A stretch of 64,000 nucleotides of DNA from a virus. A program made the position numbers and the translations under genes. Below are positions 32,894 to 62,891 of this stretch, piece after piece. Within the stretch, counting starts at the first letter, position 1; each line of letters begins with the position of its first letter. A model generated the notes under the pieces. That model was not told where the DNA came from. It saw only the letters and a program-made list of their open reading frames with translations, and made no database searches. The DNA lies in IMG/VR virus record IMGVR_UViG_3300045125_000168, positions 1 through 64,000 of that record. The stretch is one strand, 5' to 3'.

Positions 32894-32927
32894 ATCTAGT
32901 CGAGTCGGCCAAATCCTAGATTTTTTT
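32894..32927 (+). terminator. Candidate rho-independent terminator after the collagen-like gene
   Basis: ATCTAG (32894-32899) pairs with CTAGAT (32916-32921) over a 16-nt loop and is followed directly by T7. The stem is short, so strength is doubtful. The region also contains the stop of the convergent minus-strand gene. Confidence 0.35.
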
Positions 32928-33338
32928 GATTTTTTGCGCCATTTGTACGGTGTCGATCTTCTGATTCCAATAATCAAGAAGAACAGCGCGATTTAAATCA
33001 AGAAACATTTGTATTTTTTTAAGGAGACTTCCTTTCAGCCTGCCTTGTATCAGTGAGCCGTCTTTGATTTTGATGCTAGGTGCTTTTTGTAGAGATTCCA
33101 TTGTGACGCGACCCTGGCCCAAAATCACTTTCACCCTTGGTCCATGCTGGCTTTCTTTGCCTTCAAATTCTCCCGCCGAAACCCAGAGGATAGCTCCGTC
33201 TACGCCTGTGCTCTTGGAGCGTAGGTTGGACATCGCTTCGATCGCAAATCTTTCAACTTGGTCTAAAAAGACATCTCCCCACCCCCTTCTAACTTTTCGG
33301 CATATTATACCAAAAAACTTAGTAATTGAGCGAGGCAT
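32916..33338 (-). CDS. Uncharacterised protein (~90-140 aa)
   Basis: The open frame starts MPRSITKFFG, but a TATAAC box lies two bases before that ATG. The real start may therefore be the internal MSNLRSKSTGVDGAILWVSA. The conserved-looking core is ILWVSAGEFEGKESQHGPRV, KVILGQGRV, and the end has MFLDLNRAVLLDYWNQKIDT with a short terminal helix. It is not assigned to a family. It is convergent with the collagen-like gene. Confidence 0.5.
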   Translation of the reverse strand: MPRSITKFFGIICRKVRRGWGDVFLDQVERFAIEAMSNLRSKSTGVDGAILWVSAGEFEGKESQHGPRVKVILGQGRVTMESLQKAPSIKIKDGSLIQGRLKGSLLKKIQMFLDLNRAVLLDYWNQKIDTVQMAQKIKKI

Positions 33339-48254: not shown

Positions 48255-48607
48255 TTAAATCGGGAAAAAGGGAGTCCAGTCGGTGTCCTCGGAGAAAAGC
48301 CGTAAGAACTCCCCGAGCCTTCAAAAGCATGGGTGCAATTGGCAGGTATCACTAGCAAGTCGCCCGGACCAACGGTGACGGAAATCCCCTCAAAATGAAA
48401 TGTAGGCGGGTCTTTTTCCGAAGCCGCTAGACATAACCGCAACTCCTGATCAGTATGGTAATGCCAACGGGCAAACGTCTTTCGCATCTCCGCACTTGCC
48501 TGACTGGTGTCCACACGGTCGTAGCGTGTGCAGGCATGAACTTGCAGCATCTCGTCAATGCTGTTCAAGAATGCTTGAGGGTCCACTTTGAAATGCGAGA
48601 AAACCAC
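48255..48607 (-). CDS. Acireductone dioxygenase-family cupin (~117 aa)
   Basis: The cupin metal motif is RWHYHTDQELRLCL, which matches HxHxDxExR of acireductone dioxygenase (the metal ligands HxH, E and a later H). It continues GISVTVGPGDLLVIPANCTH with the last histidine, then, after one frame change near 48330, FLRLFSEDTDWTPFFPI-stop, the family's RLF-x-x-x-W-P ending. In bacteria the enzyme makes the 2-oxo acid precursor of methionine in methionine salvage. The protein is shorter than most bacterial forms (~180 aa). Its 5' end overlaps the stop of the 121-aa gene. Possible host-acquired metabolic or regulatory gene. Confidence 0.65.
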
Positions 48608-48972
48608 TATGGCTCCTTGCGGTCAATCGCATCCATCTCAGTCCGAAGATCATCAATATCCATGCCGTCGTCATACCACATCTTGAGGTATGCATGTTGG
48701 TACTTTTTCACATGCTCTACGATCATTTTCAGTTCAGATGAGTTAAGAAAAACGTCTCCCACAACACGAAAATCTCGCAGCATGATCGAAAAGTTTGGCC
48801 CTGTTTCAGGGCTACCTTTGAACACCTTGATGCGTTCCGCGTGAGGGTGACGTTTATCCCCAGGCTGAAGGACATTGAACTTTATGCCCTGAGGTAAAGG
48901 CAAGCGATATACCCGCTGCGGCACGTTTGCCATGGCATGAACTAGGTTATCAATTTGTGGCAAAAAACTCAT
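48607..48972 (-). CDS. Uncharacterised protein (121 aa)
   Basis: Intact frame MSFLPQIDNLVHAMANVPQR to EMDAIDRKEP-stop. Segments: IKFNVLQPGDKRHPHAERIK, SIMLRDFRVVGDVFLNSSEL, HAYLKMWYDDGMDIDDLRTE. It shares a stop/start overlap with the cupin gene, suggesting joint expression. Not recognised. Confidence 0.55.
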   Translation of the reverse strand: MSFLPQIDNLVHAMANVPQRVYRLPLPQGIKFNVLQPGDKRHPHAERIKVFKGSPETGPNFSIMLRDFRVVGDVFLNSSELKMIVEHVKKYQHAYLKMWYDDGMDIDDLRTEMDAIDRKEP

Positions 48973-55085: not shown

Positions 55086-55494
55086 TGCTTATAGTCAAAA
55101 GATCTTCTGCTAGTGAGGCTAAGACCGTGCGCGGAGAAAGCCTGGTTTTTGTCTAAAAGCCAATTTAAAGGATCTCGTCTCGCAGGAGGATCGAGCAGAT
55201 ACGTCAAAGCACTGCGCTCGTAAGCGAAGAGGGATTTGTCTTTGATGCTACATACCGCGAGACGCTCAGAACTATCAGGCCGAGACCACGGTTGAAGTGG
55301 TTGACGACAGAATCGAGGAATGATGTCCCCAGGCAAGATCCTCCTCGTGCAGGAGAGGTTGCACCGAGAGATGCCGTGGGCCTTGAGAACACACCTCTCC
55401 TGTGCGAACTTCAGGCCAATAAGAAAGACCCAACACGTTAGTATACTCCGTGTTGAGCCCTGTCGTTTTCCAGGTGAAGCCATAGTGTGCGCAC
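55082..55494 (-). CDS. Uncharacterised protein (~135 aa), multiply frameshifted
   Basis: A GTG overlapping the recA stop starts RTLWLHLENDRAQHGVY. Then NVLGLSYWPEVRTGEVCSQG and EEDLAWGHHSSI in the next frame, ending SLFAYERSALTYLLDPPARR, LNWLLDKNQAFSAHGLSLTS and SFDYKQ-stop. The overlap coupling to recA and the conserved-looking aromatic end suggest a real gene; the family is unknown. Confidence 0.4.
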
Positions 55495-56871
55495 TAAATG
55501 GTGACCTCAGAGGCAGTATCATCCTCATCATCGATAGAAACTCTGCCCTTACTCGCCTTACTGCTCTTGCTCGGCTTGGTGTCGGGATTGTTCTTCAAAT
55601 ACTCATAATAAAGCTCTTGGGCTTTGCCTTGGCGGATTAACTCAAACCCAGCGTTTCGGAGTTTTGTCCCCTGCTCATCACTTAAAATCATAGCTTTGAA
55701 CTTTTGCCAAGTGATGTCACCCTCGAATCCTGAGAGCGAGATGTGCATAGTGTTGCCCATCTTCTCTTGCATGAGACCGCAGTGCTTCAGAAACATGAAG
55801 GTATCGTATACGGGGTCGATGCCCATCCCTGGTGTGCCTGCGGAGTCAAGCCAGAGACGATATTCCATATTGCGGAAGCTCGGACCAAATTTGTTTTTCT
55901 GGATTTTGGCGGTGCCGATGAAATAGCGGTCTTCGCCATGCCCATCGACCGTCTTTTCCGTAATCATCTTGGATTGACTACGCTTGGCTTCGATGCGCAA
56001 TTTGAAGTCGGGATAAAATTGAACGGAAGATCCCCCTGGCTCACTTTCGGGATTCTGAAACATCGCCATGGGGTTGATCGTCAAGTGGTTGGTGACAAGC
56101 CACGCGCAATTTTTGCGTCCGATGTAAGACTTTACCAGCGGGAAATGCGCGGCAAAGCAGCGGGCTTGAATGGCAACAGGCTCTTTCTCGGGCTCTTCAT
56201 CACGCGCTTCGGGGAGCATCGCTTTAAGCGAGTCGGTGATAAAAAGCATCTGGGGAGCGAAGTTTTCCGCTTCGACCACGAGCTTCTTTCAAACCTTCGT
56301 TAATGTGTCTCCAGGTCGGCTTGTACTCATACTCGTTCGCAATCAAGAAGTAGCGGTAGCAGCTTTCTTTATCGTCCCAAAGTTGGATTTTATCGGGCAG
56401 CTTTTTGAGAATGCTGTTCATATACCGAAATGTACTCTCAGCCGTAGTGCCAATGGCATAACGAAGCTGAGGAGTCACTTCCCAGGTGCCCTTTTTATTG
56501 CGGAACCCACACAGTTTATTCAGATCAAGCCCGATATTTTGCAGATAAGTCGGGTCGAATGACGACTCGTGGTCATTAGCTACCACTAAGGTCTGACGGG
56601 CGATCGCTTCTTTAATGGTATGGAAAAGAAACGTGCTCTTACCCGCACCTGTCGGACCTACGAGCGACGACATACGGCCTGGAGCAAAGCCTCCACCCAT
56701 AATGAGGTCTAAGGATAAAAGACCGCTCGAAATCGCTCCATTGACTCGCATGGACGGGTCCATCGTGCTGTAGACAAGCCCTTGGTTGTGGGCGGCATCG
56801 TCCAGAACCTTGTTGATATCCATGATCGACTGCAAACCGTCAAATTGCGTCAAAAGCGCATCTTGCGCCAT
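55494..56871 (-). CDS. RecA/UvsX-type recombinase (~459 aa), one frameshift
   Basis: Walker A is SLVGPTGAGKSTFLF near residue 75. The catalytic E region and Walker B are in the next frame: QMLFITDSLKAMLPEA, followed by NCAWLVTNHLTINPMAMF, the NH-L-x-N-P strand of RecA-fold loop L1/L2. The C-terminus is acidic (SIDDEDDTASEVTI), as in UvsX and RecA. The two frames join near 56270 (SEVSKRLRS...VEAENFAPQM). It coats ssDNA made by gp46/47 and drives strand exchange. It starts MAQDALLTQFDGLQSIMDIN without a strong SD. Confidence 0.85.
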
Positions 56872-57095: not shown

Positions 57096-58318
57096 CTATA
57101 CATTCACCTTACCCCCAACCTTGCACACGGCTCGAACTTCTTCTTCCGTGAATTTTTTTGAGTTTTCTCCGCACAAAAAGTCTTTACGGACTATCTTGGG
57201 TGCTCCCTCAAGCGACATCAGATTGTTCCAGGTGCAATAAAAACTGCCACCGACTTCCTTAGGAGATCCTTTCAATGATTCTATTTTATTTGTAGTACAA
57301 TCGAATGATTGCCCGACAAATTCTGGTGCTCCCTCAAGAGTTTTGAGATCATTCATTCGGCATTCGAAATAAAGATGAACCTTCTTGGGTCCGGCAACTA
57401 AAGACTGAAGTTTGTTTCCGCTGCAAATAAAAAATCCGTCAATTCTTTCCGGTGCTCCTTGCAGAGACACCAGCGCATTTTGACCGCAATCAAAATGTTG
57501 ACCAACTTTCTTGGGACCACCTTTCAAAGACGTCAGTCTATTGCGAGCACATTTAAAAATGCCGCCCACCTCTCTTGGTCCTCCGTCGAGAGAAAGGAGT
57601 TTGTTGTCACTGCAATAAAAATCACCCGTGACGATATCCGGTGCTCCGACAGAGACGTCAACCCTAGACCCGAAGCGTTCACATTACCCTTCTCGTCTGC
57701 CTGCCATTTGAAGGTGAATACTTCCATCTCAAACGAAGGTATTTTCAAATCGTCTGGAAGAGAAGAATGCTTTTGATCTAGGCTATCCCAAACAGTCACT
57801 TGACCTTGCATATCCTTGAGAAGAGCGATCTTAAACCAGGGGTCTTTCGAGTCTCTGGTCTTTGAGATCAGAAAATAAATATTGTTTTTGCGGCTATACT
57901 CTTGCCAATAATGACTACTTTCATGCTTGATGCACCACTCGGTCCCTTGACCTAACTTAGAAGACGCTTCGTTCGTGGTGATCTGATAAACTGTCCACTC
58001 GTCGTTCGCTGTAATAAAGATTGCTCCAGGAATTTTTTCCCGGAGATCAACCTTGCCTTTTTTCTTCTCCGTTGCGGTCTTGGTCTTTTCTAAGTCCTCC
58101 ACTCTTTCTTGAAACTCTTTAAAAGACCTAGACCCCAAAGGTCGATATTTTTTTCATCGTCTTTGAGCTTGTTGCGATCCCTCAGCTTTTTAAATCGATC
58201 AAGGTAGTCTTGGACCTGAGCTTTCTCAATACCCTGATCTAAGAATTTCTTCTCAACCGTTTTGAAGTCTGATGTGACAACGTATTTCGCGAGAACTTGT
58301 TTGAAAAAGCCGCTACAT
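57096..58318 (-). CDS. Leucine-rich-repeat protein with jumbo-phage N-terminal domain (~405 aa), frameshifted
   Basis: The proposed start ATG near 58318 (MCGFFKQVLAKYVVTSDF if an A is removed) is followed by VEKKFLDQGIEKAQVQDYLD and an intervening helix to RVEDLEKTKTATEKKKGKVD. The domain ITANDEWTVYQITTNEASSK with GTEWCIKHESSHYWQEY resembles a domain common in phage multi-domain proteins. The C-terminal half is eight tandem ~20-residue repeats of the type GGPKKVGQHFDCGQNALVSL (bacterial LRRs). The protein is probably a host-interacting or scaffold protein. Two or three frame changes (near 58140, 57650, 57600) are bridged. Confidence 0.6.
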
Positions 58319-59827: not shown

Positions 59828-60073
59828 ATGCATACTCCAATCATCAAAAATATTTTAGTAGACAACGCTTTCAATTTGTATGTTGAGTTCGCCGATGGTG
59901 AGATGCGCTGTGTCAATTTAAAAACATGGGTTGATGGTAAATCAAAAATCAAAGATAACTTAGATTTTTGCAAGCAAGCATTTATTGAAGAAAACTGCAT
60001 CATTTCTTGGCCTAATGGGCTTTCTATAGACCCAGAAATAATTTATAAAAATGGAAAAAAAATTTACCTCTGA
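59828..60073 (+). CDS. DUF2442 protein (81 aa)
   Basis: Intact: MHTPIIKNILVDNAFNLYVE then FADGEMRCVNLKTWVDG, FCKQAFIEENCIISWPNGLS and DPEIIYKNG. This is the DUF2442 pattern (V-dn-x-L-x-V-x-F-dGe-r-vdl ... W-x-G-dI-pE-ly). DUF2442 proteins are often antitoxin-like partners of DUF4160 proteins in bacteria. Its last codons overlap the start of the next gene by 23 bp. Confidence 0.7.
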   Translation: MHTPIIKNILVDNAFNLYVEFADGEMRCVNLKTWVDGKSKIKDNLDFCKQAFIEENCIISWPNGLSIDPEIIYKNGKKIYL

Positions 60074-61002
60074 CACAAAAATAGAACTTAATAAATTGAT
60101 AAAAAGCATGGCTAACAATTTAAGTGAGATTGTGGATAGGTACAGGGCACATAAATTTCCAGAAACGACATTTTCAGTCAAACGAGTTATTCACTTGAAG
60201 GTGATCGACGATTTGAAAATGATGCTTTATTTTGACGGCGATAACCAAGCTCGCATCGTTGATTTTTCTAAAATAATACTGAGTCATCCATCCCTCATGG
60301 CATTGAAAGATCCAAGTATTTTGAAAAAAGCTAAAATATTTGGGAGTGCGCTGCGATGGGAAGACCAGGATATAGATCTGGAAGCCGCTGACCTTTACGA
60401 TGACGGTGAAACTATGAATGCTGCTCCTCCGATCATAAAGTTAGATGTTTTGGGCAATTTTGCGTTGATAATCAAGTTTGAAGGATTACCACCAAAAAAG
60501 TGGACTTGAAGACCTTCAACCTTTTAGGTCCAAAGGCTCAAAAGCTACGACAGGACATTGAATATCTACGCTCTTTTAAAATTGTCGATGGCGTTCCTGA
60601 ATGGGATGGTATGGCCTTACTAGGCCCTGAGGACCTTTCGCGGCAGCAAAGAAACTCACTATTGAGGATTTGGATAGATACGTTGAGATGTGGCATCAAG
60701 AAAAACCGAATGTCTCGCTGCAAGACTACCTGGGATTAAATGACGAAGAATACCAAGCGTTCGCTCATGGCGAGACTGTGTTAAAGCAGAAGTTTGAGGA
60801 AAAATACCGAGACATGAATGCGGAGCAAGCATGGGACCACTTCTTTTCAGAATTGGTTAAAAAATCGCATGACATCGAAGCAAGGTTTAATCAAGGCGAA
60901 GACGTCTCCGATTTTTTTGCCACTGAAGTTGACCCCGTGACGCATCAACCAAAACGAGAAAAAATGAATGACATCTCATTCACAACCGATCCTAAAAACT
61001 AG
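60051..61002 (+). CDS. Multi-DUF2442 protein with C-terminal helical domain (~315 aa), frameshifted
   Basis: The first module is helical (MEKKFTSDTKIELNKLIKSM), then a DUF2442-like unit: VKRVIHLKVIDDLKMMLYFD to ALRWEDQDIDLEAADLYDDG. A second unit starts IIKLDVLGNFALIIKFEG, changes frame near 60500 to VDLKTFNLLGPKAQKLRQDI, and closes VPEWDGMALLGPEDL. After one more frame change near 60650 the C-terminus has LDRYVEMWHQEKPNVSLQDY with LGLNDEEYQAFAHGE and ends ISFTTDPKN-stop. Together with the preceding gene this makes three DUF2442-type units in series. This layout is new to me. It faces the interrupted Panacea gene in convergent orientation. Confidence 0.55.
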
Positions 61003-61546
61003 GACCTAATCCGTCACGCTATCATTGCAAGACTCAGAGAGCCGAGTCCTCAGTTATCCATTCCATTGCCGCATCTTCCGCAGCTACCCCATCAGCATGA
61101 TCTTCCGAAATCGCTCCAGGGTTGTTAAGAACTAGCTTGTATTCGATCTTCTGGTATTTCTGTCCGAGCCTATAAGTCAGGTCCCAGGGTTCGTTAGGCA
61201 TGTGACTATCGATCATCAATGTCGCGTCGTCGGCTTCCTTAAAAATATCGGCCAGACGTGTCATGATCCTAAGTTCTCGTCGTGAAAATAGCTTGTCGTT
61301 GAAATCGACGTTTGGACGTACATCCCAATCGATATCGTCAATACGAGTGAACATAACAGCACCAGCTAAGTCTGCCTTTGGTTGCTGGATTTCGTCGTGA
61401 AGTGCGACTGGAACTGGCCCATTCGGCCAAGCATAGTAATCGAGCCCGGTAACTATTCGGCCTGTTTCCTTGAAGTGCTCGAAATCCAAGAATGCAAGCA
61501 GCTTGAATAGCTTCCATTTGCGGCAATTCTTTGTGTTTGAAACAAA

Positions 61547-61690
61547 TTGACGCCCTCCCCATGGCTAAAGCCAGGGATTCCTAACTCACTTTAGAAGTTA
61601 GCGCATCGCGCCCGATGCGGAGAATGTTCAGTGCTGCGTTGACATCTCTATCGTGGATCGCTCCACAGCCGCAGCACACCCACTCTCTTA
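61547..61690 (-). ncRNA. Predicted omega-RNA (reRNA), element 2
   Basis: The scaffold would cover the tnpB 3' end and the right-end hairpin. The guide would be read from 61546 downward (first bases TTTGTTTCAAACACAAAG), that is the Panacea sequence right beside the insertion. The 5' boundary is approximate. By known TnpB biology the guide targets the empty site. Confidence 0.5.
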
Positions 61691-62625
61691 TCGAGAGACC
61701 TTTCACCCCTTTGGGGGAGCTTTCTGGAATTACTCCACAGAAAGAACAGGTCCTCGTTGTGTTGGCCTCATCGACCTCCACGTACCAACGCCCACGCGCA
61801 CTCGCTTTGTATTTGAGCATTGTCTTAAACATCGTTGTCGCGGCATCATTGATGGACTTAGCCATTCTTGTTTTGGCAAGTTTTTTTGCACCAAAGTTTC
61901 CGACAACAATCACCTTATTTTCATCAGCAATCTTAGTGGTAGCCTTATGCAGATCGTCCATGCGCTTATTTTTGATTTTGGCATAGATACCTTTAGCTTG
62001 CCTTTTCTTTTTCCCTCTCTGTGCCTTTGCGAGCTTGCGCTCCATCATTCCGGTAGTAGCGTCCGTTGGACACCTTTTCCCCGTTTGATAGGGTTGCTAC
62101 AGATTTCAATCCTAAATCTATGCCTACCTCACCTTGAACTTTAGGTGCTCGTACCTCGTAGTCTATGGAGACACAAAGATACCATCTCCCGCGAGAGTCT
62201 TCGCAAAACTCACCTGCTCCATGAGCTACATCAGGCAACCGTTCCGGCTGAAACAATTTAAACTTGTGACCAGCGTAGGTGGCTTTGCCGTTTTTAAAAG
62301 AGATCCCTGTCTTCTTGAAAGGTATCCAACCAAGGGATTTTTTTCCACGCCATCTCAGTTTTCTTTTTTGGCTTTTTTGTCTTCTGAGAGCGTATTCCTG
62401 ACAGACCTCTTGGATGGTGGTCGAGTTAAGACCTAATTCTTTGCTAGAACCTTTTGTGAGCTTTTCTAAGTCTTGCGCGTTGAGCCACCGGCTATGGTTT
62501 CGCAAGGCATAAAAAGAAGTTTCATTACAAAAATTCCAGACATAATTGACGGCTCGTGCCATTTGTTTCAGGTGCTTGGCAGTGGCAGCGTCTTTTATGC
62601 GAATTTTAATAGTTTTTTTTGACAT
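61581..62625 (-). CDS. tnpB: TnpB RNA-guided nuclease (element 2), one frameshift
   Basis: Start MSKKTIKIRIKDAATAKHLK with the helical TnpB N-terminus. RuvC-I is VGIDLGLKSVATLSNGEKVS. After a frame change near 62030 it reads KQRGKKKRQAKGIYAKIKNK and KVIVVGNFGAKKLAKTRMAK, with G instead of E at the usual RuvC-II glutamate. The zinc ribbon is TRTCSFCGVI and WVCCGCGAIHDRD. The segment YVEVDEANTTRTC carries candidate alternative glutamates. RuvC-III is HDRDVNAALNILR. It ends DALTSKVS-stop. With an omega-RNA it should cleave DNA next to a TTTAC-type motif; nuclease activity depends on the substitute glutamate. Confidence 0.8.
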
Positions 62626-62891
62626 CGCATCGCGATGTTTACACTATTTTCGGCACCTTTTCAAGGTTCAGCTTCGCTGGGCGCGGCTTATATCCCCATG
62701 CCTAAAGGCAGGGGCTTTACGCCGTTTTCTCGGTAAATGATCGCATGAATTAACTTTTCTCTTTGCGTGGGCAGTTTCAATTTCTTTGCTCACCCTTTGC
62801 GCGTCAAAGAGTCAGTTACCCGGAAATCCCGGATAACTGATTATCCCAAATAACTCTTTAACATGCTGTAATTACTGGCTTTTAAGGCTAG

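Follow-up and report, generated by a model that had tools for sequence, protein, structure and literature searches.

The window analysed here is a stretch of 64,000 nucleotides (64 kb) from a 236,430-base virus record, a 236-kb contig of a jumbo phage; the nearest relatives of its UvsX/RecA, with about 28-33% identity, come from phages including GR7B, BcepSauron, Lu11, PaBG and Motura, and no UvsX relatives were found in IMG/VR. On the plus strand, positions 59828-61002 of the window contain four ORFs distributed over three frames (59828-60073, 60051-60509, 60500-60739 and 60670-61002), within which lie three tandem DUF2442 units (59846-60058, 60189-60401 and 60423-60640) followed by a helical domain.

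ORF 1 (59828-60073, plus strand, 81 aa) is complete, has an AGGA-type ribosome-binding site immediately 5' of it, and matches Pfam PF10387 at E 5.4e-6 and 27.0 bits (cut-off 23.9), which bears out the stand-alone DUF2442 protein of the initial annotation. Its single unit, unit 1 (59846-60058), covers the full profile length in a genome scan, positions 2-71 of 72. ORF 2 (60051-60509, plus strand, 152 aa) encodes an N-terminal helix, DUF2442 unit 2 (60189-60401; 30.1 bits, E 1.1e-7 in the genome scan) and the first half of unit 3, and as a whole it also scores above the PF10387 cut-off (E 1.2e-6, 29.1 bits). The AlphaFold model of ORF 2 has a mean pLDDT of 80.5, with values of ~95 across unit 2 and low values across the truncated half of unit 3; a fold search with this model returned no significant match, probably because it is cut inside unit 3. 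Unit 3 itself (60423-60640, plus strand) spans a change of frame, its first half being the end of ORF 2 (APPIIKLDVLGNFALIIKFEG...) and its second half the start of ORF 3 (VDLKTFNLLG...VPEWDGMALLGPEDL); the last ~34 codons of ORF 3 (60500-60739, plus strand) are out of frame. Pfam's own DUF2442 model does not match unit 3, and the assignment comes from a home-made HMM built from thirteen viral-contig DUF2442 proteins, with which the frame-joined unit scores 18.5 bits, the best of 500 shuffles reaching 6.1. Unit 3 is the weakest of the three and is recognisable only with the two reading frames joined. The expectation that every unit would match DUF2442 by profile was therefore realised above the Pfam cut-off for units 1 and 2, and for unit 3 with the home-made HMM only. 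A second protein with two units and a helical domain had also been proposed: unit 2, unit 3 and the domain containing LGLNDEEYQAF all exist, but not as a single protein, because unit 3 is split between ORFs 60051-60509 and 60500-60739 and the helical domain (60637-61002) lies in a third frame.

The C-terminal W-x-N-G-x-D-x-x-P-E-x-[LI]-Y core is nearly full in unit 1 (WPNGLSIDPEIIY); in units 2 (WEDQDIDLEAADLY) and 3 (WDGMALLGPEDLF) it is eroded, and the W-N-G-x-D portion is gone from unit 3. Pairwise identity between the units is ~25%, and pairwise alignments are better than those of shuffled sequences for units 1-3 and 2-3, though not for units 1-2. Tandem amplification occurs in phages under defence pressure; a recent event of this kind was rejected for the array on account of the ~25% identity and of a unit 1 to unit 2 alignment no better than shuffles, and the units appear instead to be old, diverged duplicates. 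Single-sequence searches with ORF 2 and the C-terminal ORF against IMG/VR, GTDB genomes, phages and plasmids gave no usable relatives (one search returned weak motif matches only), sequence comparison with solved structures gave nothing credible, and neither PADLOC nor NCBIfam assigned a defence or antitoxin family to the array.

Convergent with the array lies a Panacea (SocA-like) gene on the minus strand, whose 3' part (61037-61546) matches PF13274 at E 1.4e-12 and keeps the GPV signature. An IS200/605-type element of ~1.2 kb carrying TnpB (61547-62732, minus strand; TnpB ORFs 61581-62048 and 61993-62625, also minus) is inserted in this gene directly after TTTAC, and the 5' part of the gene, with a probable TTG start, follows at 62733-62780 (minus strand). 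Joining the two flanks moves the start of the phrog_1281 match from profile position 28 to 6 and raises its score from 45.6 to 50.2 bits; the Panacea gene is disrupted in the contig sequence. The flank-derived guide of the TnpB element would match an uninterrupted Panacea allele. The array does face a Panacea gene, as had been noted, but an interrupted one, and no toxin family was recognised beside it among the neighbours scanned. The further suggestion of a single locus in which Panacea and DUF2442 are stacked is unsupported: these are separate convergent genes, one of them split by the element, and we saw no sign of the Panacea gene and the array acting together.

Reading frame breaks in the array and along the contig

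The pieces of the array join only via two frame changes, one near 60490-60500 and one near 60635-60640. ORF 1 shares its last 23 bases, which include a run of eight A (about 60055-60062), with ORF 2, and ORF 2 has no obvious ribosome-binding site, so a third frame break in this overlap is possible. At the break within unit 3 a dnaX-type A-AAA-AAG heptamer stands in the right frame, preceded at a distance of 8 bases by a Shine-Dalgarno-like GAAGGA and followed shortly by a stop, with an 11-bp stem behind it, an arrangement that would suit programmed -1 frameshifting at CCA-AAA-AAG to give a short and a long product. The stem, however, is ordinary (z -1.14, with 25 of 200 shuffles folding at least as well) and follows without a spacer, the short product would stop mid-domain, and the second change (60635-60640) has no slippery site. 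A one-base undercall of a seven-A run would moreover yield the same heptamer, and accounts for it equally well. We consider programmed frameshifting highly improbable here.

Similar breaks affect other genes of the contig. The UvsX/RecA gene (55494-56871, minus strand) is divided between two ORFs in different frames, split at profile positions 160/163; in related jumbo phages recA is one gene of ~490-530 codons in 8 of 8 annotated relatives (nine related regions were checked, and LR745208, which carries no annotation, was left out). A DNA polymerase A match outside the window (G000 84197-85009, plus strand) contains two internal stops and has its middle piece in another frame, a helicase match has one stop inside, and TnpB is frame-broken (NF040570 in two frames). 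A crude codon-usage Viterbi model called 41 frame changes in the 64 kb, a density of 6.4 per 10 kb; for stretches of BcepSauron and Lu11 the corresponding values were 2.2 and 1.8. In these controls the model miscalls places where genes overlap in the ordinary way, so that the excess alone is meaningful. ORFs of at least 300 aa number 6 in the window, compared with 23 and 27 in 50-kb stretches of BcepSauron and Lu11. A pair of repetitive ORFs in which L-x-x-L-x-G-x-P recurs in tandem (57096-58138, minus strand) is split over two frames too.

Since replication genes are broken as well, indels of sequencing or assembly are the likeliest main cause of the frame breaks. The array might alternatively be a decayed gene, its frame changes real mutations and its sequence the pseudogene remnant of a captured antitoxin, as would fit two or three frame changes within 1 kb beside a TnpB element that has already split the Panacea gene. 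This is improbable, given that needed genes (UvsX, DNA polymerase) are equally broken, something a viable phage could not afford, and that homology at the codon level is intact on either side of every break in the array. If the breaks are errors, gene counts and claims of 'overlapping genes' drawn from this contig are not safe at face value.

Candidates for a partner toxin

In Dickeya dadantii 3937, dhiTA was shown experimentally to be a DUF4160/DUF2442 type II toxin-antitoxin (TA) pair, in which the second gene neutralises the product of the first and also represses the promoter (PMC8198452), and in a DUF4160/DUF2442 module of a Thermus plasmid the second ORF is required to tolerate the first (PMC12724237). 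The initial annotation's description of DUF2442 as an antitoxin fold paired with toxins accords with both reports. A motif scan of IMG/VR yielded thirteen lone DUF2442 genes; 12 of these 13 viral contigs carry a DUF4160 match above cut-off, found abutting upstream in ten. No DUF4160 gene lies directly upstream of the array or overlaps it near 59.8 kb. No DUF4160 match was found within about 11 kb, nor any toxin family among the neighbours scanned, so the earlier remark that no cognate toxin is visible holds, and an adjacent toxin that would make this an ordinary TA pair was looked for and did not appear. With DUF4160 present on 12 of the 13 contigs, the orphan state of the array is unusual. 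The gene immediately upstream (59328 to about 59817, plus strand) is broken over three frames, ends 10 bases before ORF 1 and has no family match in our scans; among the neighbours it alone might conceal an unknown operon partner.

Of the possible remote partners, the strongest candidate is a DUF4160-like ORF at 32916-33338 (P0002, minus strand), 27 kb off, which scores 20 bits against PF13711 (cut-off 23). Its alignment with viral DUF4160 by hhalign (prob 88.5, E 2.7e-6) indicates that it is a genuine distant DUF4160 relative. Residues H19, P21, H23 and H25 of the H-x-P-x-H-x-H motif are invariant in eight viral DUF4160 proteins; this ORF reads HGPRVKV at the motif, with the first histidine and the proline kept and the second and third histidines lost. 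The 485-kb phage LR745208 encodes a relative with 50% identity, no DUF2442 was found in the LR745208 genome, and a search of IMG/VR for relatives of the DUF4160-like ORFs found none. If the array were the antitoxin of this unlinked protein, the two would constitute a TA pair torn apart, a reading to which the real profile-level resemblance and the presence of both genes in one phage lend some weight. The genes are nevertheless 27 kb apart on opposite strands, the DUF4160-like ORF falls below the Pfam cut-off and lacks two of the motif histidines, and its relative in a genome without DUF2442 implies that no such partner is needed; we find a separated pair quite improbable. Distant DUF4160-like phage proteins without the histidines of the motif were also observed at L009 5971-6912, and LR745208 has two in a row. 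A second, very weak DUF4160-like ORF (48607-48972, minus strand, 11 kb off; 13.3 bits, E 0.022) was set aside as unsupported, its hhalign probability being 0.3.

The C-terminal helical domain

The domain at 60637-61002 (plus strand, third frame; the annotated ORF starts at 60670) carries the motif W-H...SL..YLGL..EEY, which takes in LGLNDEEYQAF and recurs in phage proteins. A four-sequence alignment of the motif led to 17 viral loci that carry it; their proteins are small (47-113 aa) and of unnamed families, and no fusion to DUF2442 occurs among those retrieved. In a motif alignment of 13 sequences (A2), W19, L32, G33 and Y39 are invariant. The loci L041-L057 encode small phage proteins of an unnamed family that have the motif W-H...SL.EYLGMT.EEY..W in common. 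The array's own domain is modelled as all-helical, with short helices and moderate confidence (mean pLDDT 70.8); searches for a Pfam family or a PDB relative by sequence found none, and the model has no fold match in the PDB, for which its moderate confidence is the probable cause. A PA4642-family identity was found unconvincing (20.9 bits, cut-off 50).

The main rival to an antitoxin role turns on this domain. The units could be a scaffold that binds proteins or nucleic acids and is no antitoxin, such as a regulator that couples DUF2442 to a DNA-binding helical C-terminus. The domain is modelled as short helices and its motif reads to us like a helix-turn-helix, which remains a guess; DUF2442-HTH proteins are known (NE0471, PDB 2AUW). 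It is also the case that the antitoxin of the type II TA operon represses its own promoter (PMC8198452). No HTH family matches the domain, however, and with no solved structure resembling its model we regard a scaffold or regulator as unlikely.

Proposed role and known relatives

The interpretation we favour, with a probability of about 0.45, is that of an orphan multivalent antitoxin directed against DhiT-like toxins. The four ORFs would derive from a single gene, or from a gene for unit 1 with a larger one behind it, and base insertions or deletions in the contig, most likely sequencing errors, would have broken the reading frame; the intact product would comprise three diverged DUF2442 domains and the C-terminal phage helical domain. 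The analysis shows the domain identity of the three units, the sequence in which they follow one another, the lack of a neighbouring DUF4160 gene and the breaks in frame; we infer a single polypeptide that would bind toxins to the benefit of the phage. An orphan multivalent antitoxin is the most likely role because DUF2442 domains bind and neutralise DUF4160-type toxins: the units would act on DUF4160-type (DhiT-like) toxins as DhiA does on DhiT, each able to bind its own target, and the phage, making the antitoxin without a toxin of its own during infection, would blunt the DhiT-like toxins of the host or of rival elements. A solo, multi-headed antitoxin is plausible. This reading must be tempered by several considerations. 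Nothing links the units to a particular (host) toxin, their ~25% identity to one another means that function may have changed, and neither the single-gene reading nor its conservation is demonstrable, since searches of phages, plasmids, IMG/VR and GTDB genomes turned up no homologue of the three-unit protein. The most elaborate version of the proposal, in which three DUF2442 domains on one chain, freed from a toxin of their own and fused to a phage-specific domain, each counter a different host DhiT-like toxin as a counter-defence, seems to us unlikely.

A precedent for several units in one chain comes from actinobacteria, where two DUF2442 units in one open frame occur at one place (G363) among ~98 DUF2442 matches in 396 genomes. 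This protein is intact and 194 aa long (L059 2175-2759), and its gene follows immediately on one for DUF4160 (70.1 bits; L059 1895-2164). Multi-unit DUF2442 antitoxins thus occur alongside their toxin and are rare in the actinobacterial sample; we met no other three-unit case. Being intact and placed behind a genuine DUF4160, the two-unit protein makes unit duplication an extension of the known DhiTA kind. One viral contig (L026 3025-3675, plus strand) contains a 217-aa ORF with a central DUF2442 (46 bits) between flanks that look HicB-like by eye, a sub-threshold UPF0150 match being the only support for the HicB part.

Were the array to function as an orphan antitoxin, this would point to an anti-phage role of DUF4160/DUF2442 modules, countered by a phage with a multivalent antitoxin. 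The little-studied DUF4160/DUF2442 TA family would then become testable as a defence system.

With DhiTA of Dickeya and the persistence module of Thermus plasmids the array shares the PF10387 family, and its unit 1 is of the usual single-domain length. It differs from them in having three units rather than one, an added C-terminal phage domain and a jumbo phage as carrier, and in that a DUF4160 toxin gene is not adjacent. PanAT/SocAB (PF13274) is represented by the neighbouring gene (61037-62780), whose Panacea product bears the GPV signature; relative to the array this is a different fold, convergent in orientation and interrupted by TnpB, with no PanT toxin recognised. Small proteins of Streptomyces phages Coruscant and Annadreamy and of gut phage contigs show the motif W-H...SL.eYLGmt.eEY..W as does the array C-terminus, although they stand alone at 47-113 aa whereas the array version adjoins DUF2442 units. 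The actinobacterial protein (G363) has tandem DUF2442 units in one chain, like the array as we read it, but in an intact frame, with two units and with its cognate toxin gene directly upstream.
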